From Hespellia sp. (GTDB lineage: Bacteria; Bacillota; Clostridia; Lachnospirales; Lachnospiraceae), in the NCBI GenBank assembly GCA_028689735.1, contig JAQVCP010000006.1:26518-90517 (forward strand): 64,000 nt of DNA, read 5' to 3'. The position numbers were made by a program, and so were the translations under genes. Shown piece by piece: positions 31,664 through 46,705 of this stretch (the stretch's first letter is position 1; each line of letters begins with the position of its first letter). The notes beneath the pieces are model-generated. The model was not told where the DNA came from. It searched no databases and worked only from the letters and a program-made list of their open reading frames with translations.

Positions 31664-31724
31664 GATTACTCGTGATGCAAACTGTTCTGGTAGATATACT
31701 GTTTCTTATAGAAGTGGTATTTGA

Positions 31725-31800
31725 TAAAGATGCCGGAGCAAACAATCATAATTCCTTGCTCTCGACAAGACGGGGGCCAAGAGACCATAAGGAGGTGCCA
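31725..31800 (+). promoter_or_regulatory. Possible S6:S18 autoregulatory leader
   Basis: The rpsF leader contains GATGCCGGAGCAA pairing through GAGCAA with TTGCTC (31736-31741 with 31756-31761) and an unpaired CCG beside the stem. Many bacteria control this operon by S6:S18 binding to a leader helix with a CCG bulge. The match is by eye only and could be chance. Confidence 0.3.
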
Positions 31801-31804
31801 AGAC

Positions 31805-32092
31805 ATGAACAAATATGAATTAGCTGTTGTTGTCAGTGCAAAAATCGAAGACGACGCAAGAGCAGAAGTTATCGAAAAAGCGAAAGAATTAATCACTCGT
31901 TTCGGTGGCAATGTGACTGACGTTGATGAATGGGGTAAGAAGAGATTAGCTTACGAAATTCAGAAGATGAAAGAAGGATTCTACTACTTCATCCACTTCG
32001 AGTCTGATTCTACTGTTCCAGCGGAAGTTGAACAACGTATCCGTATCATGGACAATGTACTCAGATTTTTGTGCGTAAGACAAGAAGCTTAG
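31805..32092 (+). CDS. rpsF: 30S ribosomal protein S6
   Basis: A 95-residue ribosomal protein that pairs with S18 on the small-subunit platform. It starts MNKYELAVVVSAKIEDDARAE and has the core WGKKRLAYEIQKMKEGFYY, typical of S6. AAGGAGG lies about 10 bases before ATG 31805. It leads the conserved rpsF-ssb-rpsR operon; the gap to ssb is 44 bases. Confidence 0.97.
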   Translation: MNKYELAVVVSAKIEDDARAEVIEKAKELITRFGGNVTDVDEWGKKRLAYEIQKMKEGFYYFIHFESDSTVPAEVEQRIRIMDNVLRFLCVRQEA

Positions 32093-32136
32093 TAAGTCCC
32101 GCTCAACAATGAGCAATGGACGGAAAAGAGGCTTAG

Positions 32137-32580
32137 ATGAATAAAGTAGTATTAATGGGTAGATTGACCAGAGACCCGGAAGTGAGATATTCACAAGGTG
32201 AGAATTCTCTTGCAATTGCAAGATATACATTAGCTGTTGACCGCAGATTCAAGCGTGACGGAGAAGCAACTGCAGATTTTATTAACTGCGTTGTATTCGG
32301 CAAGTCTGCTGAGTTTACGGAGAAGTATTTCCGTCAGGGAATGCGTGTTACAATCTGTGGCCGTATCCAGACAGGAAGCTACACCAACAAAGACGGTGTG
32401 AAAGTATATACAACAGAAGTTGTAGTAGAAGAACAGGAATTTGCTGAGAGCAAAGCGGCAAGCGAAGCGAACCGCGGAAGTTTTCAGACAAGTGCTCCTG
32501 GTCCGGCACCGAGTGCTGATGCAGGTGACGGCTTTATGAACATTCCAGACGGAATCGACGAAGAGCTGCCATTTAACTAG
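32137..32580 (+). CDS. ssb: Single-stranded DNA-binding protein
   Basis: A 147-residue SSB. The OB-fold covers residues 1-105, starting MNKVVLMGRLTRDPEVRYSQ. A Gly/Ala/Pro/Ser linker follows, and the acidic C-terminal tip DEELPFN is the docking site for replication and repair partners. It coats single-stranded DNA during replication. It lies between rpsF and rpsR, the usual Firmicute order. Confidence 0.97.
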   Translation: MNKVVLMGRLTRDPEVRYSQGENSLAIARYTLAVDRRFKRDGEATADFINCVVFGKSAEFTEKYFRQGMRVTICGRIQTGSYTNKDGVKVYTTEVVVEEQEFAESKAASEANRGSFQTSAPGPAPSADAGDGFMNIPDGIDEELPFN

Positions 32581-32648
32581 AGTACTTAGCGAGATATTAT
32601 CGAGCTTAGTGAATCGACCTTCCCTAAAAAAATAGGAGGTAAACTATA

Positions 32649-32909
32649 ATGGCTTATGAAAAAAGATCCGATTCAGGATTCAAAAGAAGAGGCCCAGCAC
32701 GCAGAAGAAAAAAAGTATGCGTATTCTGTGGTAAAGAGAATAACGAAATCGATTACAAAGATGTAGCAAAATTAAGAAAATACATCTCTGAAAGAGGTAA
32801 GATTCTTCCTAGAAGAATTACAGGAAACTGTGCAAAGCACCAGAGAGCTCTTACTGTAGCAATCAAGAGAGCACGTCACATCGCTCTGATGCCATATGTT
32901 CAGGACTAA
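32649..32909 (+). CDS. rpsR: 30S ribosomal protein S18 (zinc-binding form)
   Basis: An 86-residue protein with the S18 core [21 protein letters not shown] and the basic [11 protein letters not shown]-terminus. CVFCGKE plus the later NCAKH give the cysteines and histidine of the zinc-binding (C+) S18 form. It lies last in the rpsF operon and is followed 14 bases later by a terminator. AGGAGG precedes ATG 32649. Confidence 0.97.
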
Positions 32910-32923
32910 TAATTGATTATGAG

Positions 32924-32954
32924 ACCGTCATTGCGTGCGCAATGGCGGTTTTTC
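32924..32954 (+). terminator. Terminator of the rpsF operon
   Basis: A long GC-rich stem, ACCGTCATTGCG with TGCGCAATGGCGGT (one mismatch or G-U), then TTTTTCT. It insulates the ribosomal operon from the hexitol PTS genes. Confidence 0.85.
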
Positions 32955-33044
32955 TATTGACTTTTGTCTGCTTATGACATTGTGTCTTTTGGTGCTCCGA
33001 AAAATGGAAATGCCATCAACTTGCAAAAGTCCATCAAAAGTAGA

Positions 33045-33070
33045 TTTGGCACTAACACCATGGTGCCAAA
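33045..33070 (+). promoter_or_regulatory. Palindromic operator of mtlA
   Basis: TTTGGCAC and GTGCCAAA flank a 10-base centre. The palindrome lies 16 bases upstream of the mtlA -35, the position expected for an activator. Almost the same palindrome is found at the same place upstream of mtlF, so it is probably the MtlR site. Confidence 0.65.
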
Positions 33071-33086
33071 TCTATTTTTCTATTGA

Positions 33087-33116
33087 TTGAAAATTCTCAC
33101 CTACTGAGCGTATAAT
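33087..33116 (+). promoter_or_regulatory. mtlA promoter
   Basis: TTGAAA (33087-33092), 18-base spacer, TATAAT (33111-33116). The suboptimal -35 and long spacer suit activator dependence. Both hexamers and the spacer length are identical to those of the mtlF promoter. Confidence 0.7.
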
Positions 33117-33212
33117 AACATTAAAGCAAGAGAGTGATTGGCCAATCGCTGCTCGAGGAAATAGAGTAGGTAATGAAAATATTTTAGAGAGATTCAAGAG
33201 AGGTGTGAAAAC

Positions 33213-34610
33213 ATGAAAGAGAAAGTTCAGGTTTTTGGAAGGTTTTTAAGTGGCATGGTTATGCCAAACATCGGCGCATTTATCGCCTGGGGTTTAATTA
33301 CAGCATTATTTATTGAAACAGGATGGCTGCCAAATGCAAAGCTTGCAGAATTAGTTGGACCAATGTCTCAGGTTCTGCTTCCACTGCTGATTGCATACAC
33401 AGGTGGTACAGTTGTTCATGGTCAGCGCGGTGGTGTTATCGGTGCAATCGCAGCAATGGGTGTTATCGTTGGAGCTGACATTCCGATGTTCATCGGAGCA
33501 ATGGCAGTTGGACCATTAGCAGCATGGCTTCTTAAGAAATTTGACAAATGGGCAGAGAACAAAGTAAAAGCCGGATTCGAAATGTTAGTTAATAACTTTT
33601 CACTTGGTATCTTAGGAGCAATCCTTTGCGGCGTTTCTATGTTTGCAATTCAGCCACTTGTTACAGGCTTAAATGGAGTAATGGAAGCAGGAGTTGGTTT
33701 CTTCGTAGATCATGGTTTACTTCCACTGGCAAGTATCTTTATCGAACCTGCTAAAGTATTATTCCTTAACAACGCGATTAACCACGGTATTTTATCACCA
33801 CTTGGAATCAAACAGGTTGAAGAAGTTGGAAAATCTATCTTCTTCTTATTAGAAGCTAACCCAGGTCCTGGACTTGGAGTGTTACTTGCATATTGTATCG
33901 CAGGAAAAGGAAATGCAAAGAGTACAGCTCCAGGAGCAGTAATCATTCACTTCCTCGGTGGTATCCATGAAATTTATTTCCCATATATCCTCATGAACCC
34001 ACTGCTGCTCCTTTCAACAATGGCAGGTGGTGCAACAGGTATCTTCTTCTTCAACTTATTTAACGTAGGTCTTACAGCACCGGCTTCACCGGGAAGTATC
34101 CTTGCAATCCTTGCAATGGCTGAGAGACACAGTTACCTCGGACTTGTTATCGGTGTAGCAGCAGCAACAGCAGTATCCTTTGTAATCTCCTTGTTCATCC
34201 TGAGATTTGCAGCAAAAGATGTATCTCTCGAAGATGCACAGGCTAAGAAAGACAGCATGAAGAATCAGTCAAAAGGAATTGCAACAGAGACGGCTGGAAC
34301 AGAAGCAGCACAGACTAAAATTGCTTCTAAAGTAACAAAAATCGCATTTGCTTGTGATGCAGGAATGGGCTCATCTGCAATGGGCGCAACGGTTTTGAAA
34401 AAGAAAATCGCTGCAGCAGGAATTGAAGGAATTGAAGTAATACATACACCGGTTTCCTCTATTCCACAGGATGTTCAGCTGGTTGTAACACACGAAGAGC
34501 TTGGCGAACGTGCAGCACACAGTAATCCGGATGCACAATTAGTTCTGATTACAAACTTCCTTGCAGCACCACAGTACGACACCGTGGTAGAACAGCTGAA
34601 AAATCAATAA
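33213..34610 (+). CDS. mtlA: PTS mannitol transporter subunit IICB
   Basis: A 465-residue mannitol-family PTS permease that imports the hexitol and phosphorylates it. The IIC membrane domain (about 1-340) includes the substrate-site motif GGIHEIYFPY and NPGPGLGVLL. After a linker (about 345-370) the IIB domain has CDAGMGSSAMG with phosphorylated C381. IIA is separate (mtlF at 38572). AGAGGTG precedes ATG 33213. Mannitol is assigned by family resemblance. It leads the block and has its own promoter and operator. Confidence 0.92.
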   Translation: MKEKVQVFGRFLSGMVMPNIGAFIAWGLITALFIETGWLPNAKLAELVGPMSQVLLPLLIAYTGGTVVHGQRGGVIGAIAAMGVIVGADIPMFIGAMAVGPLAAWLLKKFDKWAENKVKAGFEMLVNNFSLGILGAILCGVSMFAIQPLVTGLNGVMEAGVGFFVDHGLLPLASIFIEPAKVLFLNNAINHGILSPLGIKQVEEVGKSIFFLLEANPGPGLGVLLAYCIAGKGNAKSTAPGAVIIHFLGGIHEIYFPYILMNPLLLLSTMAGGATGIFFFNLFNVGLTAPASPGSILAILAMAERHSYLGLVIGVAAATAVSFVISLFILRFAAKDVSLEDAQAKKDSMKNQSKGIATETAGTEAAQTKIASKVTKIAFACDAGMGSSAMGATVLKKKIAAAGIEGIEVIHTPVSSIPQDVQLVVTHEELGERAAHSNPDAQLVLITNFLAAPQYDTVVEQLKNQ

Positions 34611-34665
34611 ATATTCTTCTTTCCTATAAGGAAAAAGTGGATTATAATTATATAAAGAAAGACGA

Positions 34666-34772
34666 AGTGGCGGGGCAGAACGAATGATAAGTGTTCGTTT
34701 TGCTTTCCACTATGTTGAAATAATCAGAATACTGACACAGTCTGTTTTGGGGGAAATGGACGGTGTCAGTAT
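34666..34772 (+). other. Two tandem hairpins between the two mtlA-like genes
   Basis: The first hairpin (34666-34711) pairs AGTGG, then GCAGAACGAA with TTCGTTTTGC, then CCACT. The second (34729-34772) pairs ATACTGACAC with GTGTCAGTAT and continues into the loop. Neither has a clean T-run, though the first carries TTTTGCTTT. They may slow or attenuate transcription into the second permease, or stabilise the mtlA message. Confidence 0.5.
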
Positions 34773-34817
34773 ACTTGCGTTTATAAACAGGGATGAATGC
34801 TATGAGGGTGGGAACGG

Positions 34818-36272
34818 ATGAAAAAGAGGATACAAAAAGTTGGAAAATTTTACAGCGGGATTATCATGAAATATATTGGAATCTTTCTCTTTGTGGGACT
34901 GGTGTCTGTCTGCTTTGGGAAAAATGGCTGGTATCCGTATGAAGCCATGTCTAACATATCGGGAACGGTTTATGATATCCTGCTTCCCTGTCTGATTGGT
35001 TTTGCCGCGGGTGAGGCAATCGGCATGGATTCCGGTGGCGTGGTGGGGCTGCTGGCCACGGTTGGGGTTGTGGCAGCGGATGCACGAATTGGAATTCTGG
35101 GAGCAATGATCATAGGACCAATCTGTGGTTTCTTCTGTAAAAAAGTCCTTAACAAATTGCTTGAGAAGACAAGGGCAAGTCTGCAGATGCTGACGAAAAA
35201 TCTGATGATTGCAGTCGCAGGATGTATTTTCTGTCTCTTTGGCCATTTTGTTCTTGCTCCAATGCTGAGTGTGCTGTCAACGGCCATGTCTTACGGGATT
35301 GATTATCTGATTTCAGAACGTTGGATTGTGCTGAGCAGTATTATTATCGAGCCGACAAAAGTGCTGTTTCTGAACAATGGTGTGAACCATGCAATTCTGA
35401 CACCACTGGGGGTACAGCAGGTAGAGGTATCTGGGAAATCTGTCCTGTTTTTGCTGGAGACGAACCCGGGACCGGGACTTGGAGTACTTTTAGCGCTTCT
35501 GTGCAGAAAAAAAGAAAAAAGAGAGCAGTATGCAGCTGGCTTATTCGTGCAGGGAATCGGTGGAATCCATGAAGTATATTTTCCGTTCATTCTGTCCAAT
35601 TTATGGCTGATTTTTCCATTGATTGCAGGTGGTATGGCTGGAACGGCATCCTTTCTGTCGCTTGGAGCTGGTCTGCAGGCACCGGTGTCACCGGGCAGTA
35701 TTCTGACAATCCTGCTGATGGCAGGACGGAGCGACTTCATGGAAGTACTGGCGGGAATCGGTGTATCGGTTGTGGTATCATTTACTGTTGCATGGTTTGT
35801 GTTGTTTTTTCAACATAGATGGAAGAAAGATTCGTTGAATGCTTCTTTATATGAAGCGAATGTGAATCGGATATCTGAAGACATGGGGACAGAAGACGGA
35901 ACCTCAGAGATGGAAATTGCAGGAAAAAACGGGGATGGTGCAGAAGATTTGGAAATGCATGCTGTTGGAATCGGAAGAGATGAGGTAAAAAGAATTGGCT
36001 TTTTATGCGATGGCGGAGTCGGATCCAGCGTCATGGGAGCAGCTATTTTCCGAAGACAGCTGAAAGCATGCGGCATCGCAGGAATCGAGGTCTCTGCGTA
36101 TGCAGCATCAGAAGCACCGGAAGATCTGGACCTGATCGTGTGTCAAAAGGATTTTGCGGAAATGCTGCCGGATGCCTGCAGAAAAAAACAGATTTTCTCA
36201 CTGGACAATCTGGTCAGCAGTGAAAGTTATACGGAATTATTGGTAGAGATTCAAAAGAGAAGGGGAGAGTAA
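34818..36272 (+). CDS. Second mannitol-family PTS IICB (mtlA paralogue)
   Basis: A 484-residue paralogue of the upstream permease. The IIC part keeps NPGPGLGVLLA and GIGGIHEVYFPFIL, and the IIB part keeps the active cysteine in CDGGVGSSVMG (C397). Both activities could therefore work. The linker is longer and acidic, and overall divergence is high, so the substrate may differ (another hexitol or pentitol) or the protein may sense rather than transport. It has no IIA of its own. The stop overlaps the mtlR start by one base, so it is likely co-translated with the regulator. Confidence 0.82.
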   Translation: MKKRIQKVGKFYSGIIMKYIGIFLFVGLVSVCFGKNGWYPYEAMSNISGTVYDILLPCLIGFAAGEAIGMDSGGVVGLLATVGVVAADARIGILGAMIIGPICGFFCKKVLNKLLEKTRASLQMLTKNLMIAVAGCIFCLFGHFVLAPMLSVLSTAMSYGIDYLISERWIVLSSIIIEPTKVLFLNNGVNHAILTPLGVQQVEVSGKSVLFLLETNPGPGLGVLLALLCRKKEKREQYAAGLFVQGIGGIHEVYFPFILSNLWLIFPLIAGGMAGTASFLSLGAGLQAPVSPGSILTILLMAGRSDFMEVLAGIGVSVVVSFTVAWFVLFFQHRWKKDSLNASLYEANVNRISEDMGTEDGTSEMEIAGKNGDGAEDLEMHAVGIGRDEVKRIGFLCDGGVGSSVMGAAIFRRQLKACGIAGIEVSAYAASEAPEDLDLIVCQKDFAEMLPDACRKKQIFSLDNLVSSESYTELLVEIQKRRGE

Positions 36273-38374
36273 TGGGATTTTCGACACGTATCAAACAGAT
36301 TTTGATTGTTCTCTTGCAGGAGGCGGAGCCAGTCTCTGTTCAATATCTGGCAGAAAAAATCGGAGTGAGCAAACGGACTACCCAGCGTGAACTTGGTTAC
36401 ATCGATTCGGACTTGAAACATTATCCACTCACATTTATGAGTAAGACCGGAGTGGGCGTATGGCTGGAAGGTACTGCAGAGGAAAAGGAGCAGCTCCTTC
36501 ATAAGCTCCTTCAGGGCGATCAGTTCGATGTTATGAACAAGGAAGAACGAAGAAAGCGGCTGATTCTGGAAATTTTAAGGGATAAAGGTCTGAAAAAATT
36601 GTTTTACTACAGCAGTCAGTTTCAGGTGAGCGAGGCGACAATCAGTAATGATCTGGAGGCCATTGAACCGTGGCTTAATGCTCAGAATCTTTTTATTGTG
36701 CGCAAGCCGGGATGCGGTGTGGATGTTCAGGGAACAGAGGAGGAATACCGCAAGGCAATCCGTATCTTTATCGATGAAAATATGAACTCGGATTTTATCA
36801 GAGAATCCTATGAATTCTCAGAGACAGAGGGAGGGAAAAAGCGCGGAATTGAAAATCTCAAAAACAGTGAGATTGGGCAGATTCTCAATGACAATATCCT
36901 GAAAAAAGTTGTCAATACCATTCTGGGGCTGGACAATGAGCGGGTGCTGAACCTGACGGAGAACTCTTATGTTGGTCTGGTGCTCCACGTTTCCATAGCA
37001 ATTAACCGCATTATCAAGAATGAGATGATTGAGACTAATGAGGAGCTCATTCACGATGTGGCCAAGGATGAGGACTTTGCTCTGGCGGAGCAGATTGTAA
37101 CTGCTCTGGAGGAAGAGTTTGATATCGAAATTCCGGAGATGGAGATTTATTATATCTGCCTTCATATTAAAGGAGCCAAGCATCAGAAGGTTGCCTTCAA
37201 GGAAACGGAGACAGTGGAGATGGAGCGCAAAGAGCTGCAGAAGCTGGTCAATGCTATGATCAATGCATTTGACGAGGAACAGGCGTATTTGTTGAAACAG
37301 GATGACGAATTTATCCAGGGTCTGCTCGCGCATCTTCAGCCGACGATGATCCGGATTATGTATCATATGCAGATTCAGAATCCGGTGCTGGAGGATATCA
37401 AGAAAGGATATCAGGAAGTATATGAAAAATGTCTGAAGGTGTCAAAGGTGCTGGCGGATTGGATTGGACAACCGGTGCCAGAGACGGAGACTGGATTTTT
37501 GACTGTGCATTTTGGAGCCGCACTGGTTCGCCTTGAAGATAAGAAAGAAGTGTTCCGTCAGGTAGCGGTTGGAGTAGTATGTGCCAGTGGGATCGGAATA
37601 TCAAGACTTATGGCAACCAAGATAGAAAAGGGCTTCAAGAACCGCGTGGAGGTTGTTACCTACGGGAAAAATGATATTACCCCATTCATCATTTCTAACA
37701 CAGACTTTTTTGTATCCAGTATCCCGATGGACACAAGCCAGGGAGATATCTTGTCGGTAAGCCCACTGCTCAACGAGGCAGATATGGATGAGATTCGAAA
37801 AAAAGTCATGTATTATGAGCGGACACCACAGCTGGGGAGGGATCGGTCAGAGACATCTGTGCAGCTGGAACAGACCAATTTTGTGGCACATCAGATTCGC
37901 ATGGTGGTAGATCATATGGAATATTTCCAGGTGGAGGAAGAAATTACATTTCCGGTGCTTGTGGAGACAATCGGCAAGGGGATGGCTTGCTATGACGAGG
38001 AGCGGGACTGGGTGGTGCAGGATCTTTTGAACCGCGAAAAGCTTGGAAGTCAGATTTTTGCGGAATTCGGATTTGCCCTGCTTCACACCAGAACCAGAGA
38101 CGTGAGCAGACCAGAATTCGCAGTCTGTCTGACGGAGACCAAGGGCAGCTTTACGGATCCGTATTTTAAAGGGATTCAGGCGGTGTTTGTCATGCTCATT
38201 CCAGTGGATGACCATATCAAAGAGAACAGTGATATTCTCGGATACATCAGTGGAATGATGATTGAGGACGATGAATTCCTTGACAAGATGATAGCAGGGG
38301 ATAAGGAAGAGATGAGGCAGACTCTTTCGAAGACTTTGAAAGAGTACTTTAAGTATTATGTGAGCCGGTTGTAG
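36272..38374 (+). CDS. mtlR: PRD-type transcriptional activator MtlR
   Basis: A 700-residue PTS-controlled activator. It has two N-terminal helix-turn-helix domains (about 8-60 and 85-140; VSVQYLAEKIGVSKRTTQRE), PRD1 (about 195-305), PRD2 (about 310-415), an EIIB-Gat-like domain with VVCASGIGIS (Cys about 427) and an EIIA-Mtl-like domain with H605 in LLHTRTRD. PRD regulators of this type are activated or silenced by phosphorylation from HPr and the cognate EIIs. It probably binds the TTTGGCAC palindromes at the mtlA and mtlF promoters. ATG 36272 overlaps the stop of the preceding gene. Confidence 0.88.
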   Translation: MGFSTRIKQILIVLLQEAEPVSVQYLAEKIGVSKRTTQRELGYIDSDLKHYPLTFMSKTGVGVWLEGTAEEKEQLLHKLLQGDQFDVMNKEERRKRLILEILRDKGLKKLFYYSSQFQVSEATISNDLEAIEPWLNAQNLFIVRKPGCGVDVQGTEEEYRKAIRIFIDENMNSDFIRESYEFSETEGGKKRGIENLKNSEIGQILNDNILKKVVNTILGLDNERVLNLTENSYVGLVLHVSIAINRIIKNEMIETNEELIHDVAKDEDFALAEQIVTALEEEFDIEIPEMEIYYICLHIKGAKHQKVAFKETETVEMERKELQKLVNAMINAFDEEQAYLLKQDDEFIQGLLAHLQPTMIRIMYHMQIQNPVLEDIKKGYQEVYEKCLKVSKVLADWIGQPVPETETGFLTVHFGAALVRLEDKKEVFRQVAVGVVCASGIGISRLMATKIEKGFKNRVEVVTYGKNDITPFIISNTDFFVSSIPMDTSQGDILSVSPLLNEADMDEIRKKVMYYERTPQLGRDRSETSVQLEQTNFVAHQIRMVVDHMEYFQVEEEITFPVLVETIGKGMACYDEERDWVVQDLLNREKLGSQIFAEFGFALLHTRTRDVSRPEFAVCLTETKGSFTDPYFKGIQAVFVMLIPVDDHIKENSDILGYISGMMIEDDEFLDKMIAGDKEEMRQTLSKTLKEYFKYYVSRL

Positions 38375-38436
38375 ATGCAATTTGGAGATAGAGAGAAGGG
38401 GGCGTGGTTTGGAATGCCGTGCTGTCCCCACTAAAA

Positions 38437-38461
38437 TTTGGCACTATCTGTTGGCGCCAAA
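38437..38461 (+). promoter_or_regulatory. Palindromic operator of mtlF
   Basis: TTTGGCAC and GCGCCAAA flank a 9-base centre. Counted from the base after the palindrome, 15 bases separate it from TTGAAA, exactly as at mtlA. Probable MtlR activator site. Confidence 0.65.
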
Positions 38462-38477
38462 TATCGGGGTCTTTGAA

Positions 38478-38507
38478 TTGAAAAATGTAGTGCTAAGGAC
38501 ATATAAT
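38478..38507 (+). promoter_or_regulatory. mtlF promoter
   Basis: TTGAAA (38478-38483), 18-base spacer, TATAAT (38502-38507). It drives mtlF and the two catabolic genes separately from mtlA. Confidence 0.7.
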
Positions 38508-38571
38508 ATACACATAGAAACACGAAAGCAAAGAAATGACAATAAACAAAAAATCAAAAGGAGGAAATGAA

Positions 38572-39084
38572 ATGTTCTTTAAGAAGAAAAAAGCAGAACC
38601 AGAAAAGGTGACAGCAGTGGAGACTCCGGCAGCAACAGCTGAATCTGAAGGTGGACAGAATTTAGACTTACTTTATTTGAAAAATGTCAAGGTGGACGGC
38701 AAGGCAGCGAATAAAGAAGAAGCAATCCGGATGGTTGGCCAGATGCTGGTTGACACAGGATATGTTGATCCATCTTATGTAGATGGAATGGTAGAGAGGG
38801 AAAAAACATTTTCTACATACATGGGAAGCGGACTTGCTCTTCCTCACGGAGTGGAAGCAGCGAAGAAAGCAGTTAAGGCTTCTGGAATCGCAGTTGTAGT
38901 ATTCCAGGATGGAGTAGACTGGGGCGGAGAAACAGCAGAGATCGTAGTTGGAATCGCAGGCGTTGGTGATGAACATCTGAACATCCTTTCTAATATTGCA
39001 GAGGTCATGATGGATGATGAAAGAGTAAAAGATTTATACAGCAAGGATGCACAAAAGATTTACGCATTATTAACAGCAAACTAA
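38572..39084 (+). CDS. mtlF: PTS mannitol transporter subunit IIA
   Basis: A 170-residue phosphocarrier of the mannitol/fructose IIA family. H92 in GSGLALPHGVEAA takes phosphate from HPr and hands it to the IIB cysteine of the permease. Compared with the usual length of about 145 residues it has an extra charged, Ala/Pro-rich N-terminal extension (1-30) that may be a relic of a fused linker. AAAGGAGG lies 7-8 bases before ATG 38572. It is the only IIA in the block and could serve both IICB proteins. Confidence 0.92.
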   Translation: MFFKKKKAEPEKVTAVETPAATAESEGGQNLDLLYLKNVKVDGKAANKEEAIRMVGQMLVDTGYVDPSYVDGMVEREKTFSTYMGSGLALPHGVEAAKKAVKASGIAVVVFQDGVDWGGETAEIVVGIAGVGDEHLNILSNIAEVMMDDERVKDLYSKDAQKIYALLTAN

Positions 39085-39124
39085 AAGTGACAGCAAAACA
39101 GCAGATTTGAAAGGGGTAGAGAGT

Positions 39125-40057
39125 ATGATCGTAACAGTGACAATGAATCCGGCAATTGACAAGACGGTGGATGTGCCAAGATTAGAGTGCGGCGGTCTGA
39201 ATCGTATCAGTCATGTAGAATACGATGCCGGAGGAAAAGGAATCAACGTTTCCAAGACTATCAAGGAACTTGGTGGGAAGAGCATCGCAACCGGATTTCT
39301 GGGTGGTAATGCCGGAAGGACGATTCAGAGTGTTCTGGAAGACTGGGGAATCGAAAATGATTTCGTCTGGGTAGATGGTGAGACAAGAACCAACACAAAG
39401 GTTGTAGAACAGCGCGGCGGTGTGACAGAGCTCAATGAACCTGGTCCGATCATCACAGCAAAACAGATGCAGCAGTTATACGAAAAGCTGGAGGGTTATG
39501 CGGCAGAGGACGTGTTGTTTGTACTGGCAGGAAGTATTCCAAGTGGTGTTGATAAACACTGTTACAGGAAAATTGTAGAAATGGTACACGGCAAAGGTGC
39601 CAAGATTCTTTTAGATGCAGACGGAGAGTTGTTCAAAGTTGCTTTGGACGCAGGTCCGGACATTATCAAACCAAACAGGGTAGAGCTGGAAGAATACGCA
39701 CAATTTGATTATCATGCTTCCGAAGAAGAGCTGGCGCAGATTGCTGTAAAGCTTCACGAAAAAGGAATTGAGACAATTGCAATTTCCATGGGTGGTGAAG
39801 GCGCATTATTTGTCGGAAAAGACTACGAGATTTTCTGCCCGGGACTTCGCGTTGAGGCACATTCTACCGTAGGTGCGGGCGATGCAATGGTAGCGGCCCT
39901 GGCATATGGCGTTGATGGTAAGCTTGGAATCGAAGAAATGGTGAGAACATGTATCGCAACTTCAGCGGGTGCGGTTACTACGATTGGTACAAAACCACCG
40001 ACAAGAGAAGTGATTGACGGCCTGAAGGAAAAAGTAATTATGGAGCGTCACAGATAA
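39125..40057 (+). CDS. fruK: 1-phosphofructokinase family hexose-phosphate kinase
   Basis: A 310-residue PfkB-family kinase. It opens with MIVTVTMNPAIDKT and has DAGGKGINVSK and the catalytic STVGAGDAM (D253). RTNTKVVEQ and TELNEPGP fit the FruK/LacC branch. It most likely phosphorylates fructose-1-P to fructose-1,6-bisphosphate; tagatose-6-P kinase is the alternative. No fructose PTS lies in the window, so the source of fructose-1-P would have to be the dehydrogenase encoded next. AAAGGGG precedes ATG 39125 by 8 bases. The gap after mtlF is 40 bases. Confidence 0.85.
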   Translation: MIVTVTMNPAIDKTVDVPRLECGGLNRISHVEYDAGGKGINVSKTIKELGGKSIATGFLGGNAGRTIQSVLEDWGIENDFVWVDGETRTNTKVVEQRGGVTELNEPGPIITAKQMQQLYEKLEGYAAEDVLFVLAGSIPSGVDKHCYRKIVEMVHGKGAKILLDADGELFKVALDAGPDIIKPNRVELEEYAQFDYHASEEELAQIAVKLHEKGIETIAISMGGEGALFVGKDYEIFCPGLRVEAHSTVGAGDAMVAALAYGVDGKLGIEEMVRTCIATSAGAVTTIGTKPPTREVIDGLKEKVIMERHR

Positions 40058-40184
40058 TCTGGGAAGCCAAAGTGTAAAGAATCATTTAAATGCAGTTCCA
40101 AAAATTAATGTTGAAAATTGCAGTGGTAAAGCAGACATTTGAAATAAATAAAAAAATATAAAAAAGAAAAAGGAGATTATAACT

Positions 40185-41450
40185 ATGAAAACAAAAGCAG
40201 TAAGAATGTATGGAACAAGAGACTTGAGATTAGAGGAATTTGAACTTCCACAGATCAAAGATGATGAAATCCTGGTAAAGGTTATGAGTGACAGCATCTG
40301 TATGTCTACTTACAAATTAGTAGAGCAGGGTAAGAAGCATAAGAGAGCTCCACAGAATATTGATACAAACCCGGTTATCATCGGACATGAGTTTGCAGGT
40401 GTTATTGTTGAAGTTGGTGAAAAATGGAAAGATCAGTTCAAACCGGGTCAGAAATTTGCTCAGCAGCCAGCCCTCAACTACAAAGGACGTCTTGACTCTC
40501 CTGGATATTCTTATGAATTCTGTGGTGGAGCTACAGAATACTGTATCATGCCTCACGAAGTAATGGAACTTGGATGCCTGATGCCTTATGATGGAGATTC
40601 TTTCTTTGAGGCTTCTCTTGGCGAGCCAATGAGCTGCTGTATTGGTGGATTCCACGGAAACTATCATACAAACAAAAGAAATCATGACCTTAAGACAGGT
40701 ACAAAAGAAGATGGAAACATCATTATCTTAGGTGGATGCGGTCCAATGGGACTCGGTGCAGTAAGCTACGGAATCCAGTTCGAGAACAAACCGAAACGTA
40801 TCGTTGTAACAGATATCAGTGATGACAGAATTGCAAGAGCAAAAGAAGTAATCACACCAGAATATGCACAGGAGCATGGCGTAGAGTTATTATATGTAAA
40901 TACAGCAAGCATGGCTGACCCTGTAAAAGAACTCATCGACATTACAGAAGGACACGGATATGATGATGTATTTGTATACATCCCAAATCGTCAGGTTGCT
41001 GAGATGGGTGACAAATTACTTGCATTCGACGGATGCTTAAACTTCTTCGCTGGCCCAACAGATAACCAGTTCAGCGCAGAAATCAACCTTTACAACTGCC
41101 ACTATACAAGCTCTCATATCATGGGAACTACAGGCGGAAACAACGATGACCTGATTGAAGCAAATACACTTGCAGCAGCAGGAAAGATCGAGCCAGCCGT
41201 AATGGTTACACATGTTGGTGGTATCGATAGTATCGTAGAGGCTACACTGAACCTTCCTAAGATTCCAGGAGGAAAGAAGCTGACTTATACACAGTTCAAC
41301 ATGCCACTTACAGCAATCGAAGACTTTGGTAAGTTAGGTGAAACAGATCCATTATTCAAGAAACTGGATGATGTTTGCAAGGCAAACCGTGGACTTTGGA
41401 GTGCAGAAGCTGAGAGAATCTTGTTTGAGCACTTTGGTGTAGAAGTATAA
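40185..41450 (+). CDS. SorE-like zinc polyol-phosphate dehydrogenase
   Basis: A 421-residue medium-chain dehydrogenase resembling L-sorbose-1-phosphate reductase (SorE). Zinc-site residues sit in SDSICMSTYK and IIGHEFAG, and the nucleotide fold in IILGGCGPMGLGAVSYG. No structural-zinc cysteine lobe is apparent. SorE interconverts a 2-keto-1-phosphate and the hexitol phosphate at the carbon beside the phosphate. On mannitol-1-P the same chemistry would give fructose-1-P, the substrate of the upstream kinase; this is inference. Strong AAAGGAG site before ATG 40185. Last gene of the block, with a terminator about 80 bases downstream. Confidence 0.82.
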   Translation: MKTKAVRMYGTRDLRLEEFELPQIKDDEILVKVMSDSICMSTYKLVEQGKKHKRAPQNIDTNPVIIGHEFAGVIVEVGEKWKDQFKPGQKFAQQPALNYKGRLDSPGYSYEFCGGATEYCIMPHEVMELGCLMPYDGDSFFEASLGEPMSCCIGGFHGNYHTNKRNHDLKTGTKEDGNIIILGGCGPMGLGAVSYGIQFENKPKRIVVTDISDDRIARAKEVITPEYAQEHGVELLYVNTASMADPVKELIDITEGHGYDDVFVYIPNRQVAEMGDKLLAFDGCLNFFAGPTDNQFSAEINLYNCHYTSSHIMGTTGGNNDDLIEANTLAAAGKIEPAVMVTHVGGIDSIVEATLNLPKIPGGKKLTYTQFNMPLTAIEDFGKLGETDPLFKKLDDVCKANRGLWSAEAERILFEHFGVEV

Positions 41451-41531
41451 TCGAAAAGCGGACGTATACGTGGTCATCCAGTCGATGGGCTGGATAGACC
41501 GTTAAATCGGAAATAATCAATATTTGCCAAG

Positions 41532-41564
41532 GGGTGTTTTCTATCATGGAAGACACCCTGTTTT
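41532..41564 (+). terminator. Terminator of the hexitol operon
   Basis: A 10-bp stem, GGGTGTTTTC (41532-41541) with GAAGACACCC (41549-41558, one G-U or mismatch), then TGTTTT. It ends the mtlF-fruK-dehydrogenase message. Confidence 0.75.
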
Positions 41565-41569
41565 ATTGT

Positions 41570-41594
41570 CGGGAAAGTTCTTGGAACATTCCCG
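41570..41594 (+). repeat. Recurrent CGGGAA/TTCCCG hairpin, copy 2
   Basis: Contains GGGAAAGTTCTT and AACATTCCCGG exactly as in the copy at 12960, differing only in the loop centre (GG versus TA). Like that copy it sits directly behind a terminator. The rest of the 364-base gap (41451-41814) holds a TATAAT at 41717 that may serve gdpP. Confidence 0.55.
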
Positions 41595-41814
41595 GATGGC
41601 AGTATCAGCCTATCGGGTGAAGCTGAATTTACAATGGGATAATATTGAAAACAGGATAGCTGAAAATGAAAAATATATGGTAAAAATATGGGGATGCAAT
41701 CCGGGGAGAAAAATGATATAATAGGTGCAGACTGGTGTGTGCTTCGTCATCAACCTGTGATTGACGACAGGATATCATACAGTGGCAACACGATGGATAT
41801 AGAGGAAAAAGGAA

Positions 41815-43860
41815 ATGAAAAAGAACAATATCCGCTTAAAAGGACAACTCAGATTATACATGCAATGGCCGATTGTTATGTCGGTCCTCCTGATCGCAAT
41901 GAATATCTGGATTTATATGGTAGATAAAAAGGCAGGCGCAATCATGACAGTATGCATTATCATTTACATGATTGTAGCCAGTGTTTTTTATTTCTATAAT
42001 CGTTCCCTGGTATTTGCAGATTTGGTAGAATTTGCAGCCCGTTATGGAATCGTACAGAATACATTGTTGAAGGAATTATCTGTTCCCTATGCGATTCTTC
42101 TGGAAGACGGAAGAATCCTGTGGATGAATGACAGCTTTACAGAGCTGACCCAGAGAAAGAAAAATGACAAATATATTACCAAGCTGATTCCAGACCTGGA
42201 TACGAAGACCCTGCCTTCAAAGCAGGCGGATCAGGTGGAAAAGGAGATTACGTACAAGGATCGTGATTATCACGTGGAACTCCGAAAGGTGTCGGTAGAA
42301 GGCTTCAGCGAGACAGAGCAGCTCTTTGATATCTCGGAGGAAAAGGAATTTTTCGTTGCAGTTTATATGCGAGATGTGACAGAATTGAATGCCTATATCA
42401 GGGAGAATGAAGACCAGCGTTTTATAGCAGGACTGATTTACATTGATAATTATGATGAGATCATGGCCAGCGTTGAAGAGGTTCGACAATCACTGCTTGT
42501 GGCATTGATTGACCGTAAGATTAACAAATACATCGGTGATGTAGATGGGGTTGTCAAAAAGCTCGAGAAAGATAAATATTTCATTGTTATTAAAAAGAAG
42601 AGCTTCAAACAGCTTCAGGAAGATAAGTTTGCGCTTCTGGAAGAGGTCAAAGAGGTCAATATCGGCAATACCAGTGCACCGACTTTGAGCATCGGTCTGG
42701 GACTTAATACATCGACTTATGCACAGAGCTATAATTATGCACGTGTGGCCATTGATCTGGCACTTGCAAGAGGCGGGGATCAGGCAGTAATCAAGGACTG
42801 CAACGGTATCACATATTTTGGCGGCAAGAAGGAGCAGATGGCCAAGAATACCCGCGTGAAAGCGCGTGTCAAGGCAGAAGCGCTTCGTGAGTTTATTATT
42901 GCCAAGGATCAGGTCATCGTGATGGGACATAATATTTCAGATGCGGATTCACTGGGAGCCTGCATCGGCATTTACCGGGCGGCGACAGAGTTGGAGAAGA
43001 AAGCACATATCGTGATCAATGAGATTACGAGTTCTATCCGACCGCTCTATGATGAGATTGCAAAGAATCCAGCTTACGAAAAGGATTTGTTCCTCACGTC
43101 AAAAGAAGTGGAGGAATATGTTACTGACAACACGATGGTAGTGGTTGTAGACTGTAACAAAGCGATGATGACAGAGTGTCCTCCGCTCCTTAAGAAGGCG
43201 AAGACAATTGCAGTTCTGGATCATCACAGACAGAGCAGTAATATGATTGACAATGCAGTGCTCTCCTATATTGAGCCATACTCTTCCTCAGCCTGCGAGA
43301 TGGTTGCGGAGATTCTGCAATATATCGTGGAAGATATCAAGCTTCCGAGTGTGGAAGCCGAGTGTCTCTATGCCGGAATCATGATTGACACCCGGAACTT
43401 TATGAACCGGACCGGCGTGCGGACCTTTGAGGCAGCGGCATTCCTGCGAAGATGCGGAGCCAATATCACCAGAGTGCGCAAGATGTTCCGCGACGATATG
43501 GAATCCTATCGCGCAAAGGCAGAAGCTGTGCGTATGGCAGAAGTATACCGCAAGGAATTTGCGATTTCATTTTGCCCGGGAGATATTGACAGCCCGACAG
43601 TTCTGGCGGCGCAGGCGGCCAACGAGTTGTTGGATATCAACGGAATCAAGGCGTCCTTTGTCATGACAGAATACAATGAGAAGATTTATCTGAGCTGTCG
43701 CTCGATTGATGAGCTGAATGTACAGCTGATTGCCGAGAAGCTTGGCGGAGGCGGTCATATTAATGCAGCCGGGGCACAGTTCCCGTATACGGATATGCAG
43801 AAAGCAATCCGTGTACTGAAAAAGACGATTGATACAATGATGGAAGAAGGAGACATATAA
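41815..43860 (+). CDS. gdpP: c-di-AMP phosphodiesterase
   Basis: A 681-residue membrane enzyme that hydrolyses c-di-AMP to pApA. It has two N-terminal membrane helices (about 14-60), a PAS-like domain (about 80-180), a degenerate GGDEF domain (about 190-345) and the DHH/DHHA1 catalytic part. Motifs are [27 protein letters not shown] and [10 protein letters not shown], all intact. The GGDEF domain has no GGDEF signature, as is normal for GdpP. It overlaps the rplI start (TAATG), and the gdpP-rplI-dnaB order is conserved in Firmicutes. Confidence 0.96.
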
Positions 43861-44306
43861 TGAAGGTAATTTTATTAGAAGATGTAAAGAGTCTGGGAAA
43901 GAAAGGCGAAGTAGTAAACGTTAATGATGGATATGCAAGAAATTTCATTCTTCATAAGAACCTTGGAATTGAGGCTACCAATAAGAATCTCAACGATCTG
44001 AAGCTCAAGAAGAATAATGAGGAGAAGCTTGCCCAGGAACAGCTGGAGGCAGCCAAGGAGCTTGCAAAGAAGCTTGAGACCGGTGAGATTACACTGACGA
44101 TCAAGACTGGTGAAGGCGGAAGGACCTTTGGTTCTATTTCCTCAAAGGAGATTGCGGAGGCAGTGAAGGACCAGATGGGATATGACGTGGACAAGAAGAA
44201 GGTTCAGCTCAAAGAGGGAATTAAAACTCTCGGCACACATACGGTACCAGTAAAGGTTCATGCGAAGGTTACCGCTGAGCTGAAGGTCAAAGTGAACCCT
44301 GCATAG
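43860..44306 (+). CDS. rplI: 50S ribosomal protein L9
   Basis: A 148-residue protein with the L9 N-terminal motif [29 protein letters not shown], a long charged connecting helix (about 45-80) and a C-terminal domain ([20 protein letters not shown]). It sits near the base of the L1 stalk. The ATG overlaps the gdpP stop by one base. The gap to dnaB is about 185 bases. Confidence 0.97.
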
Positions 44307-44490
44307 ATGCAGTTGGGCAAGAGAATGCAATGGTAAAGAGGGATGAGAATATCCGTTTTACATGTGGAAAAAAATAGCCGGACATTCGTGAGATATTGAA
44401 AAATAGACTGCGGATGTCCGCTTTGATTGAAGACAATGTGCTGGCCGCGAAGCGTGCAGGATATTGTTATTAGGAAAAGGAGTGCCAAGT

Positions 44491-45837
44491 TTGGAAGAAG
44501 CAATCATCAAAAAGATAATGCCGCATAATGCGGAGGCGGAGCAGTCCGTAATCGGAGCCATGCTCCTGGACAAAGATGCAATTATGGCCGCTGCCGAGAT
44601 GATTAACGGTGAAGATTTTTATCAAACTGCATACGGAATTCTGTTTGACTCTATGGTTGAGCTGTTTAATGAGGGGAAACCAGTGGATCTGATTACTCTT
44701 CAGGAACGTCTGAAGGAGAAGAATGTCCCTCCGGAGATCAGCAGTATGGAATTCGTGAGAGATCTGATCACCAGTGTGCCTACCTCAGCAAATGTAAAGT
44801 ACTATGCGGAAATCGTGCAGGAAAAGGCGACCCTCCGTAAGCTCATTAAGCTGAATGAGGAGATTGCGAATGCGTGTTATGTGGGAAGCGAGCCACTTGA
44901 GAGCATTCTGGAGATGACAGAGAAGAATATTTTTGAGGTAGTACAGCACCGGAATGTGCGGGACTACACGCCCATCAAGCAGGTTGTGCTCAATGCACTG
45001 GACAAGATAGAGCAGGCATCAAAGACAAAGGGAACGGTTACCGGAGTTCCGTCCGGATTTGCGGATCTTGACTATAAACTCTCTGGTCTGCAGCCCTCGG
45101 ATTTGATTCTGATTGCTGCAAGACCTTCTATGGGAAAGACTGCTTTTGTACTGAACATCGCCCAGCATGCGGCGTTCAGACAGAATAAGCATGTAGCAGT
45201 ATTCAGTCTTGAGATGTCAAAGGAGCAGTTGGTGAACCGTCTGTTTTCACTGGAATCTCACGTAGACGCCCAGGTCATCCGTACGGGTAACCTGAAGGAC
45301 ACGGACTGGGAAAAATTAATTGAAGGTGCCGGAATCATTGGAAAGTCCCATCTTGTTATTGACGATACTTCTGGTATTTCCGTGCAGGAAATGCGCTCGA
45401 AGTGCCGTAAGATTAAGATGGAACAGGGCCTGGACATGATCATCATTGACTACCTTCAGCTGATGTCCGGCGGAAGCGGACGAAGCAACGAAAGCAGACA
45501 GCAGGAAATCTCAGACATTTCCCGTTCACTCAAAGGTCTTGCCAGAGAATTGAATGTGCCGGTGCTGGCACTGTCACAGCTCAGCCGTGCGGTGGAGCAG
45601 AGAACCGACAAGCGTCCGATGATGTCGGATCTCCGTGAATCCGGAGCCATCGAGCAGGATGCCGATGTTATCATGTTCATTTACAGAGAAGATTATTACA
45701 TTCCGGATACGGAAGCCAAGAACATTGCGGAGATTATCATCGCCAAACAGAGAAACGGCCCGATCGGAACCGTGAAGCTGGCATGGATGCCGCAATACAC
45801 TAAGTTCGGAAATGCACAGTTTGATGACCGGGATTAA
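44491..45837 (+). CDS. dnaB: Replicative DNA helicase
   Basis: A 448-residue hexameric helicase (DnaB, called DnaC in Bacillus) that unwinds the replication fork. The N-terminal DnaG-interacting domain (about 8-110) begins MPHNAEAEQSVIGAMLLD. The RecA-like motor has the Walker A ARPSMGKTAF, Walker B-type MIIIDYLQLMSG and the SDLRESGAIEQDAD motif. No intein is present. The start is probably TTG 44491, seven bases after AAAGGAG; a GTG at 44482 and a TTG at 44464 are alternatives. Confidence 0.95.
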   Translation: MEEAIIKKIMPHNAEAEQSVIGAMLLDKDAIMAAAEMINGEDFYQTAYGILFDSMVELFNEGKPVDLITLQERLKEKNVPPEISSMEFVRDLITSVPTSANVKYYAEIVQEKATLRKLIKLNEEIANACYVGSEPLESILEMTEKNIFEVVQHRNVRDYTPIKQVVLNALDKIEQASKTKGTVTGVPSGFADLDYKLSGLQPSDLILIAARPSMGKTAFVLNIAQHAAFRQNKHVAVFSLEMSKEQLVNRLFSLESHVDAQVIRTGNLKDTDWEKLIEGAGIIGKSHLVIDDTSGISVQEMRSKCRKIKMEQGLDMIIIDYLQLMSGGSGRSNESRQQEISDISRSLKGLARELNVPVLALSQLSRAVEQRTDKRPMMSDLRESGAIEQDADVIMFIYREDYYIPDTEAKNIAEIIIAKQRNGPIGTVKLAWMPQYTKFGNAQFDDRD

Positions 45838-45871
45838 TTCTGGGGATTCAACGATTCTTATGTCAGGCAGC

Positions 45872-46528
45872 TTAATGTCTGTCGATGGCAAATACTTTGG
45901 CAGCAATACTCTGGAATGGTGTGGAGCGGGCGTTCTCTTTTCGATACGCCTGCTGCTGTCGTATGAGACAGTCGAGTTTTCGATAGTGCTCTTCCTCACG
46001 CTGTTCCTTTGAGGCAAACAGCTCACCCATTTCCTGCAGGACCTCTGTAGTCACGCTGCGGCTGATATCCTTTTTGAGAGACTGGTTATTCTCGGAGACG
46101 GCTTCGCTGACAACAGCACCGATGAGGGAACGCATTTCCTTCAGGTTGTTTTCCGTAAAGACGTCCATCTGGGTGTGTGGTTCATTTCCTTGATGCAGAA
46201 TGGGTTTTGTCTCGGCGGTGGCTGCTTTGTCATTTGGACGATTTGTTTGGGACGTATCAGATTTTCTATGTGGGTGGCTGGCCTGATAGCGGTCCCGTGC
46301 TTTCATCAGGTCAGGCAGCAGTCCCCGGATTTCCTTTAGAGATAGTCCTTCATCCTTCAGTTTACGGATGCAGCAAAAGAGTTGGATATCCTTCTGGGTG
46401 TAGTAGCGGTGCCCCTGCTCATTCCGGCTCACAGTGAGTGCAAGCTCGTCCTCCCAATACCGAAGGACATGGGATTCCACATCCACCTGCCTTGCAGCCT
46501 CAGAAATCATATATTTTAGTTCACTCAT
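45872..46528 (-). CDS. MerR family helix-turn-helix protein
   Basis: A 218-residue protein with an N-terminal MerR DNA-binding domain (about 5-70; ISEAARQVDVESHVLRYWEDE, GHRYYTQKDIQLFCCI). A polar linker (about 85-115) and a coiled coil (about 120-205) follow, with no effector-binding domain. This build recalls RacA-like MerR proteins that bind DNA structurally rather than sensing a ligand. ATG 46528 has GGAGG 8 bases upstream. It converges with dnaB across a 34-base gap without an obvious terminator. Confidence 0.8.
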   Translation of the reverse strand: MSELKYMISEAARQVDVESHVLRYWEDELALTVSRNEQGHRYYTQKDIQLFCCIRKLKDEGLSLKEIRGLLPDLMKARDRYQASHPHRKSDTSQTNRPNDKAATAETKPILHQGNEPHTQMDVFTENNLKEMRSLIGAVVSEAVSENNQSLKKDISRSVTTEVLQEMGELFASKEQREEEHYRKLDCLIRQQQAYRKENARSTPFQSIAAKVFAIDRH

Positions 46529-46705
46529 AAAAATAACCTCCAATCATCAAGCAGTCCCGTTCGATTCCGCTTTACTTTCGTGTACAGTATAGCATGTCCC
46601 ACATGCAAAATGGGTTAGAATCGTTCATCAAATAACGACATTCCCTGCACCTGTTGCAGTTGAGATGCATAGGATAAAATATAGCAGAGAAATGGATGTG
46701 TAGTT

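Follow-up and report, generated by a model that had tools for sequence, protein, structure and literature searches.

Mannitol catabolism through the phosphoenolpyruvate-dependent phosphotransferase system (PTS) is taught as a pathway in which MtlD converts mannitol-1-phosphate to fructose-6-phosphate. The canonical operon carries mtlA, mtlR, mtlF and mtlD (the E. coli order was read in its DNA), and its Gram-positive form has an MtlR of the type with PTS regulation domains (PRDs). A hexitol PTS block at 33213-41450 of the 64-kb stretch of Hespellia sp. DNA analysed here (the window) has the MtlA-type permease, the enzyme IIA (EIIA) and the PRD-type MtlR in common with the Gram-positive operon. 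Instead of MtlD, however, it has a zinc enzyme of the medium-chain dehydrogenase/reductase (MDR) class (DH, 40185-41450, plus strand), a member of the SorE/YggP family and a predicted mannitol-1-phosphate 2-dehydrogenase, together with a PfkB kinase of the 1-phosphofructokinase (1-PFK) type (FruK, 39125-40057, plus strand, ATG at 39125). Our analysis suggests that the block is probably a mannitol-type PTS operon, in which DH is predicted to convert mannitol-1-phosphate to fructose-1-phosphate and the kinase to convert fructose-1-phosphate to fructose-1,6-bisphosphate.

In the proposed route, MtlA would, by homology, import mannitol as mannitol-1-phosphate. DH, in the usual place of MtlD, would oxidize carbon 2 of mannitol-1-phosphate, probably with NAD+ as the cofactor, and the 1-PFK-type kinase would phosphorylate the resulting fructose-1-phosphate. 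Such a route would bypass fructose-6-phosphate and 6-phosphofructokinase. A preliminary description of this DNA had based the first step on SorE, which oxidizes or reduces the carbon beside the phosphate. In Fischer projections drawn by hand with the phosphate end first, mannitol-1-phosphate and glucitol-6-phosphate indeed differ only at the far carbon; therefore, oxidation beside the phosphate of mannitol-1-phosphate would give D-fructose-1-phosphate, and on this comparison the argument is chemically sound. Several genomic patterns support the predicted fructose-1-phosphate route: DH and MtlD exclude each other among mtlA genomes, FruK is linked to DH, fructose-type FruK has been recruited repeatedly, and an operator-like site is shared by both transcription units.

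Absence of MtlD and its mutual exclusion with DH

The mtlD gene of the canonical mannitol operon was found neither in the block nor in the rest of the Hespellia sp. genome (3.69 Mb, 97.1% complete). The preliminary description had already noted that the block has no mtlD, and the genome-wide search with PF08125 and the MtlD model NF002646 bears it out. No frame in the whole genome matches NF002646 at E<=1e-40, and the sole match to PF08125 is a frame of 560 residues. This protein was considered as a hidden MtlD and rejected: its best model, below the cut-off, is fructuronate reductase, and the neighbouring gene reads by eye as a 2-keto-3-deoxy-6-phosphogluconate (KDPG) aldolase.

We surveyed 200 genomes of the same family, spread evenly over 199 genera, with thresholds of E<=1e-60 for the mtlA model, E<=1e-60 for DH and E<=1e-40 for MtlD. 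Matches were found in 24 genomes for mtlA, 25 for DH and 10 for MtlD. The 24 mtlA genomes comprise 17 with DH alone, six with MtlD alone, none with both and one (G116) with neither (one-tailed hypergeometric p 5.2e-5, with kinship ignored). In this sample of mtlA genomes, DH and MtlD are thus mutually exclusive; a co-occurrence survey had been proposed in the preliminary description. Three genomes without mtlA (G010, G012 and G188) carry a distant DH (49-54% identity) plus an MtlD homologue below the cut-off.

A second sample consisted of 17 DH genomes hand-picked from the 80 DH loci described below. None of them has an MtlD above the cut-off and 16 have no match at E<=1e-20; the only sub-cut-off case is Faecalicatena orotica, with two such matches. 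No match to E. coli MtlD was found in any of the 80 DH loci in the flanks covered, which extend to at most 10 kb per side and often less. The 80 loci and the 200 family genomes overlap (for instance, L077 with G051 and L017 with G019) and are not independent samples.

The dehydrogenase, the kinase and their linkage

DH carries both Pfam domains of zinc MDR enzymes (ADH_N and ADH_zinc_N), consistent with an MDR fold, and passes no NCBIfam cut-off. It is 50.5% identical to E. coli YggP and 45.6% identical to Klebsiella SorE. This refines the earlier designation as SorE-like: DH is closer to YggP and lies outside the SorE clade. In an alignment of 65 DH, YggP and SorE rows (A1), C39, H68 and E147 never vary and E69 and D210 rarely do; the invariant residues are common to all three kinds of rows. 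By analogy with other MDR enzymes, we take C39, H68, E69 and E147 to be zinc ligands and D210 to be the acidic residue of NAD-type enzymes. An AlphaFold model of DH (pLDDT 93.3, pTM 0.90) matches MDR alcohol and sorbitol dehydrogenases in a fold search; the predicted model speaks for the MDR fold only and does not decide which carbon is oxidized.

The DH tree was built from 23 of the 80 DH loci, the DH frames of at least 300 residues in the family genomes (a fragment in G138 was excluded), four references and nine database proteins whose gene context was not viewed. All enzymes whose gene cluster contains a mannitol-type IICB group together in a single clade of 47 rows (support 97/94), which also includes rows whose context is cut or was not viewed. 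This clade contains the group of the window (35 rows, 100/100), a group of five rows with 55-57% identity whose genes adjoin an IICBA-type MtlA, and the group of E. coli YggP (seven rows); the join between the latter two is weak (89/33). Outside the clade are the SorE enzymes of Klebsiella and Lactiplantibacillus and the dehydrogenases from genomes without mtlA. A count of label changes on this tree gave eight changes and was not used.

A search of genome contigs with DH found 140 relatives, of which the best 80 loci were kept (72-95% identity). These best 80 are from Lachnospiraceae, plus contigs titled Peptacetobacter, Eubacterium, Megasphaera and a Paenibacillaceae metagenome-assembled genome. 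In 68 of the 80 loci, no more than 1.5 kb separates FruK from DH, with FruK upstream in 64 and downstream in four; among the loci with at least 1.1 kb covered on both sides, the count is 59 of 67. Where at least 6.5 kb upstream is covered (62 loci), IICB is found in 60, EIIA in 60, MtlR in 57 and FruK in 55. Because FruK is near DH in 68 of the 80 loci and MtlD in none, the gene arrangement is not a product of chance. In the family survey, the same cluster contains a full-length FruK in 11 of the 17 DH-type mtlA genomes; it is absent in five and undecidable in one, at a contig end. In G008, mtlA lies at a contig end with its upstream side outside the view. None of the six MtlD-type mtlA genomes has FruK in the cluster, and one of them (G047) has a short partial match.

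Several loci depart from the common arrangement. In Hespellia stercorisuis (L007:5178-6968), whose DH is 95% identical to that of the window, only EIIA and DH are present, and the permease, the regulator and FruK are missing there. In L027 and L063, FruK and DH adjoin without PTS genes in the flanks covered; the neighbours include a B6-type ATP-binding cassette (ABC) transporter with biotin synthase, and oxaloacetate decarboxylase with glycerol kinase genes. These two loci were considered as an ABC-transporter form of the pathway, which was rejected on the neighbouring genes, and they are taken only as detached FruK-DH pairs, in which the linkage of the two genes persists even so.

The window kinase (‘type A’) passes the 1-PFK model TIGR03828 (317.8, cut-off 292) and falls below the cut-off of the LacC model TIGR01231 (143.2, cut-off 409.6). 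The chains of its two best relatives with solved structures are named fructose 1-phosphate kinase. It is 33.9% identical to E. coli FruK and 34-36% identical to four FruKs outside such operons (L002 and L135-L137). Tagatose-type kinases from four other clusters (L141, L143, L144 and L145) all pass TIGR03828 as well. The one from L145 scores 311.9 on this model and 239.8 on TIGR01231, also under 409.6. TIGR03828 alone was thus rejected as proof of a fructose-1-phosphate kinase. In all four clusters (L145:4239-9662 and the other three), the PfkB kinase adjoins a GatD-like dehydrogenase. The L145 cluster, the only one whose neighbours were named, also has a tagatose-bisphosphate-type aldolase and an FGGY kinase; the names of the GatD-like enzymes and the aldolase are those of their best models, under those models' own cut-offs.

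Some DH operons carry a different kinase. In L082-L085, G161 and G172, it is close to the FruK of fructose operons and only 34-37% identical to the window type. In a tree of 53 of the 101 kinases, with type A thinned to 24 and L083 omitted as near-identical to L082 and L084, these fructose-type kinases branch from separate points within the clade of fructose FruKs, although the exact placement of L108 (G161) and L111 (G172) is weak (80/59 and 91/76). Forcing the five fructose-type rows into a single clade was rejected by the approximately unbiased (AU) test (p 0.0029), which was not fully blind, as the label ‘type B’ came from gene context and similarity to the L082 kinase. On these phylogenies, fructose-type FruK has joined DH operons more than once. 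Such repeated recruitment is hard to explain unless the product of DH is fructose-1-phosphate.

Gene layout and regulation

All six genes of the block are on the plus strand. The first, IICB1 (mtlA, 33213-34610), encodes a PTS mannitol-family IICB of 465 residues, which has 59.7% identity to E. coli MtlA and scores above the threshold of the mtlA model TIGR00851 (507 bits, cut-off 468.4). Its C381, E253 and H191 align to C384, E257 and H195 of E. coli MtlA; C381 corresponds to the phosphocysteine and E253 to the glutamate of the GIHE motif. IICB2 (34818-36272, 484 residues) is a second mannitol-family paralogue, 37.9% identical to IICB1, that falls under the mtlA cut-off (286.9 bits) and retains the phosphocysteine position (C397). 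It is placed between mtlA and mtlR without an EIIA of its own, and is the best match in 27 of the 80 DH loci, partly by short matches. The regulator (36272-38374) has the layout of an MtlR/BglG-type PRD activator, with a helix-turn-helix domain, two PRDs, a weak EIIB-like part (20.4, below the cut-off of 23.6) and an EIIA-2 domain. The EIIA gene, mtlF (38536-39084), encodes H104, which aligns to the phospho-His554 of E. coli MtlA, and is followed by FruK and DH. The preliminary description had named a mannitol-type permease, an EIIA, an MtlR, a PfkB kinase and a zinc dehydrogenase, and each is found where it had been placed; its single permease needs to be corrected, since the block has two. 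The block sits inside a core cluster (31721-46543 of the window). From their translations, we take the genes on its 5' side to be rpsF-like, ssb-like and rpsR-like, and those on its 3' side to be GdpP/YybT-like, rplI-like and dnaB-like.

Two palindromes, to which no strand is assigned, are candidate MtlR operators: TTGGCAC-N10-GTGCCAA upstream of mtlA (33046-33069) and TTGGCAC-N9-GCGCCAA upstream of mtlF-fruK-DH (38438-38460). Each ends 17 bases upstream of the first hexamer of a promoter-like sequence, TTGAAA-N18-TATAAT, with 11 of 12 consensus positions (33087-33116 before IICB1 and 38478-38507 before mtlF, both on the plus strand). The palindromes resemble the MtlR site of Bacillus, and MtlR would bind them. 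Because such a palindrome precedes both units, mtlF-fruK-DH probably forms a second unit that shares MtlR control with mtlA. The upstream palindrome lies within a hairpin that was also reported by the terminator scan (33036-33079). Promoter-like sites number 25 in the region, compared with 17.0 (standard deviation 3.5) in shuffles. A terminator-like hairpin is found 3' of the DH gene (41531-41559, plus strand); with five such sites in the region and 6.0 in shuffles, it means little alone. The window has two matches to the CcpA catabolite-responsive element (cre) pattern, roughly as many as chance would produce, and neither is in the block.

The operator-like pattern occurs at three sites in the 3.69-Mb genome, two of them in the block, and the reversed control pattern at none. 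The third site is at G000:C139:4305-4326 (L160). A slightly looser pattern was used for the 80 DH loci (1.39 Mb), with crude base-pair shuffles as the background. It found 51 sites, of which 31 are before IICB1, 19 before EIIA and one elsewhere; the shuffles average 2.0. Among the loci with enough upstream DNA, the site precedes IICB1 in 31 of 52 and EIIA in 19 of 61. Within L067-L086, only L079 has any.

Alternative explanations and comparison with known systems

A number of observations weigh against the fructose-1-phosphate route, and some of them favour a different role for DH or for the whole operon. FruK is absent beside DH in eight of the 67 well-covered loci and in five of the 16 decidable family genomes. 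Roseburia porci (L074) has mtlA-mtlR-mtlF-DH and no 1-PFK in its draft genome at any threshold tried. In most of the genomes checked with a DH cluster lacking FruK, the 1-PFK model does match elsewhere, and TIGR03828 matches above its cut-off in 16 of the 17 hand-picked DH genomes. However, a match somewhere in the genome says little, because it is found in five of the six MtlD-type genomes and 155 of all 200 family genomes, as well as in 17 of 17 DH-type genomes. The operator pattern is missing before 21 of the 52 IICB1 genes and 42 of the 61 EIIA genes. The DH operons without FruK and the lack of a 1-PFK in Roseburia porci would fit a DH that is simply an unrelated replacement of MtlD, oxidizes the far carbon and yields fructose-6-phosphate, the kinase then using fructose-6-phosphate or stray fructose-1-phosphate. 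Galactitol-1-phosphate dehydrogenase, another MDR enzyme, does oxidize the far carbon. We consider this explanation unlikely, since it hardly accounts for the FruK neighbour of DH in 59 of the 67 loci or for the repeated recruitment of fructose-type FruK. Furthermore, SorE, at 45.6% identity, acts beside the phosphate, and the residues invariant in A1 are common to DH, SorE and YggP.

The kinase and the permeases also bear on whether mannitol is the substrate. As tagatose-type kinases pass TIGR03828, the family name of the kinase is no proof of fructose-1-phosphate specificity. The earlier description of the kinase as FruK-type stands on this model; in the tree, its clade is not firmly placed with the fructose FruKs and joins the tagatose-type kinases with weak support (92/51). 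Of 25 alignment columns that distinguish the two types, the window type agrees with the fructose kinases in nine, with the other kinases in eight and with neither in eight; N90, K92 and N104 are in the state of fructose-type FruK. The Hespellia sp. genome also holds a second set of genes, of the Cmt/YggP type, so that mannitol could be the substrate of that set instead. The block would then serve another hexitol, for example glucitol that receives its phosphate on carbon 1 and would likewise lead to fructose-1-phosphate, or a galactitol-like polyol degraded via tagatose phosphates. Such an operon, which the two different permeases in the block could also suit, is quite unlikely in our view. 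IICB1 resembles E. coli MtlA (59.7% identity) and scores above the mtlA cut-off, DH and MtlD are mutually exclusive in mtlA genomes, and the block, unlike the L145 cluster, is without a tagatose-bisphosphate-type aldolase. It is highly improbable that DH is a classical SorE working in the sorbose direction beside an incidental FruK. The 45.6% identity to Klebsiella SorE and the database name of one close relative (P0017), L-sorbose 1-phosphate reductase, are in its favour. Nevertheless, DH is outside the SorE clade, operator-like sites link it to mtlA, and neither a mannose-family sorbose PTS nor SorD, both of which are found beside annotated or plasmid SorE-like genes, is present in the block.

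The proposed conversion of mannitol-1-phosphate to fructose-1-phosphate may extend beyond this block. A broader reading, to which we would give an even chance, is that mannitol-1-phosphate 2-dehydrogenases linked to MtlA or CmtA, including YggP, replace MtlD in a widespread second bacterial mannitol pathway. They would make fructose-1-phosphate, and in most mtlA-bearing Lachnospiraceae mannitol would enter glycolysis at fructose-1,6-bisphosphate without 6-phosphofructokinase. Genome-based predictions of mannitol use look for mtlD; if the pathway exists, they would misjudge 17 of the 24 sampled mtlA-bearing genomes of the family. Mannitol carbon would also skip the controlled phosphofructokinase step and give rise to fructose-1-phosphate, which is a regulatory metabolite elsewhere.

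The cmtB-cmtA-yggP-yggF cluster of E. coli K-12 has a mannitol-type EIIA, an IICB and a dehydrogenase (50.5% identical to DH) in common with the block, and differs in that the fructose-bisphosphatase YggF and the P-loop protein YggC are encoded nearby while FruK is absent from the stretch viewed. Cmt is a cryptic mannitol PTS. The yggP gene (within locus L089, E. coli K-12 3074000-3084500) is directly 3' of cmtA and followed by yggF, and its annotation says no more than putative dehydrogenase. Mannitol-1-phosphate oxidation is a candidate function of YggP, and if the pathway exists, this uncharacterised enzyme beside cryptic CmtAB would gain a testable function. The second set in Hespellia sp. 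is split by contig ends between L114 (G000:C18:1-10000) and L115 (G000:C132:1-9000). It comprises an MtlR-like regulator, a CmtB-like protein, a P-loop protein (41% to E. coli YggC), a CmtA-like permease (59%) and a YggP-like dehydrogenase (64%). In G027 (L097), the genes for CmtB, the P-loop protein, CmtA and YggP form an unbroken run. A possible kinase of the Hespellia sp. set is its P-loop protein. SorE, the L-sorbose-1-phosphate reductase of the Klebsiella sor operon, belongs to the same MDR family as DH and has the invariant residues in common with it, but forms a separate clade and is neighboured by a mannose-family PTS and a short-chain dehydrogenase/reductase. Similarly, the FruK of fructose operons is a PfkB kinase like that of the window and shares N90, K92 and N104 with it, whereas the window kinase is in a clade of its own.

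Formation of fructose-1-phosphate from mannitol-1-phosphate by such an enzyme is not described in the passages retrieved from open-licence PMC articles, to which the search was confined, subscription literature being outside its scope. Searches of the open-licence literature found nothing on Hespellia stercorisuis with mannitol or on mannitol fermentation by Megasphaera elsdenii. According to the retrieved passages, Lacrimispora species vary in mannitol use, with strains that could not be tied to the operon (PMC11316579, PMC12578346, PMC13286285), mannitol does not support growth of E. limosum SA11 (PMC4791908), and a further study gives mannitol results for other Eubacteriaceae only (PMC12029686). 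One passage attributes fructose-1-phosphate to MtlD in Geobacillus, in MtlD operons (PMC4428132); it looks like a slip for fructose-6-phosphate. The closest described parallel in these passages is Haloarcula hispanica, in which mannitol carbon also reaches fructose-1,6-bisphosphate via fructose-1-phosphate and 1-PFK (PMC11519228). Unlike the route proposed here, however, free mannitol is oxidized to fructose and ketohexokinase phosphorylates it, with neither a PTS nor mannitol-1-phosphate involved (PMC11519228).

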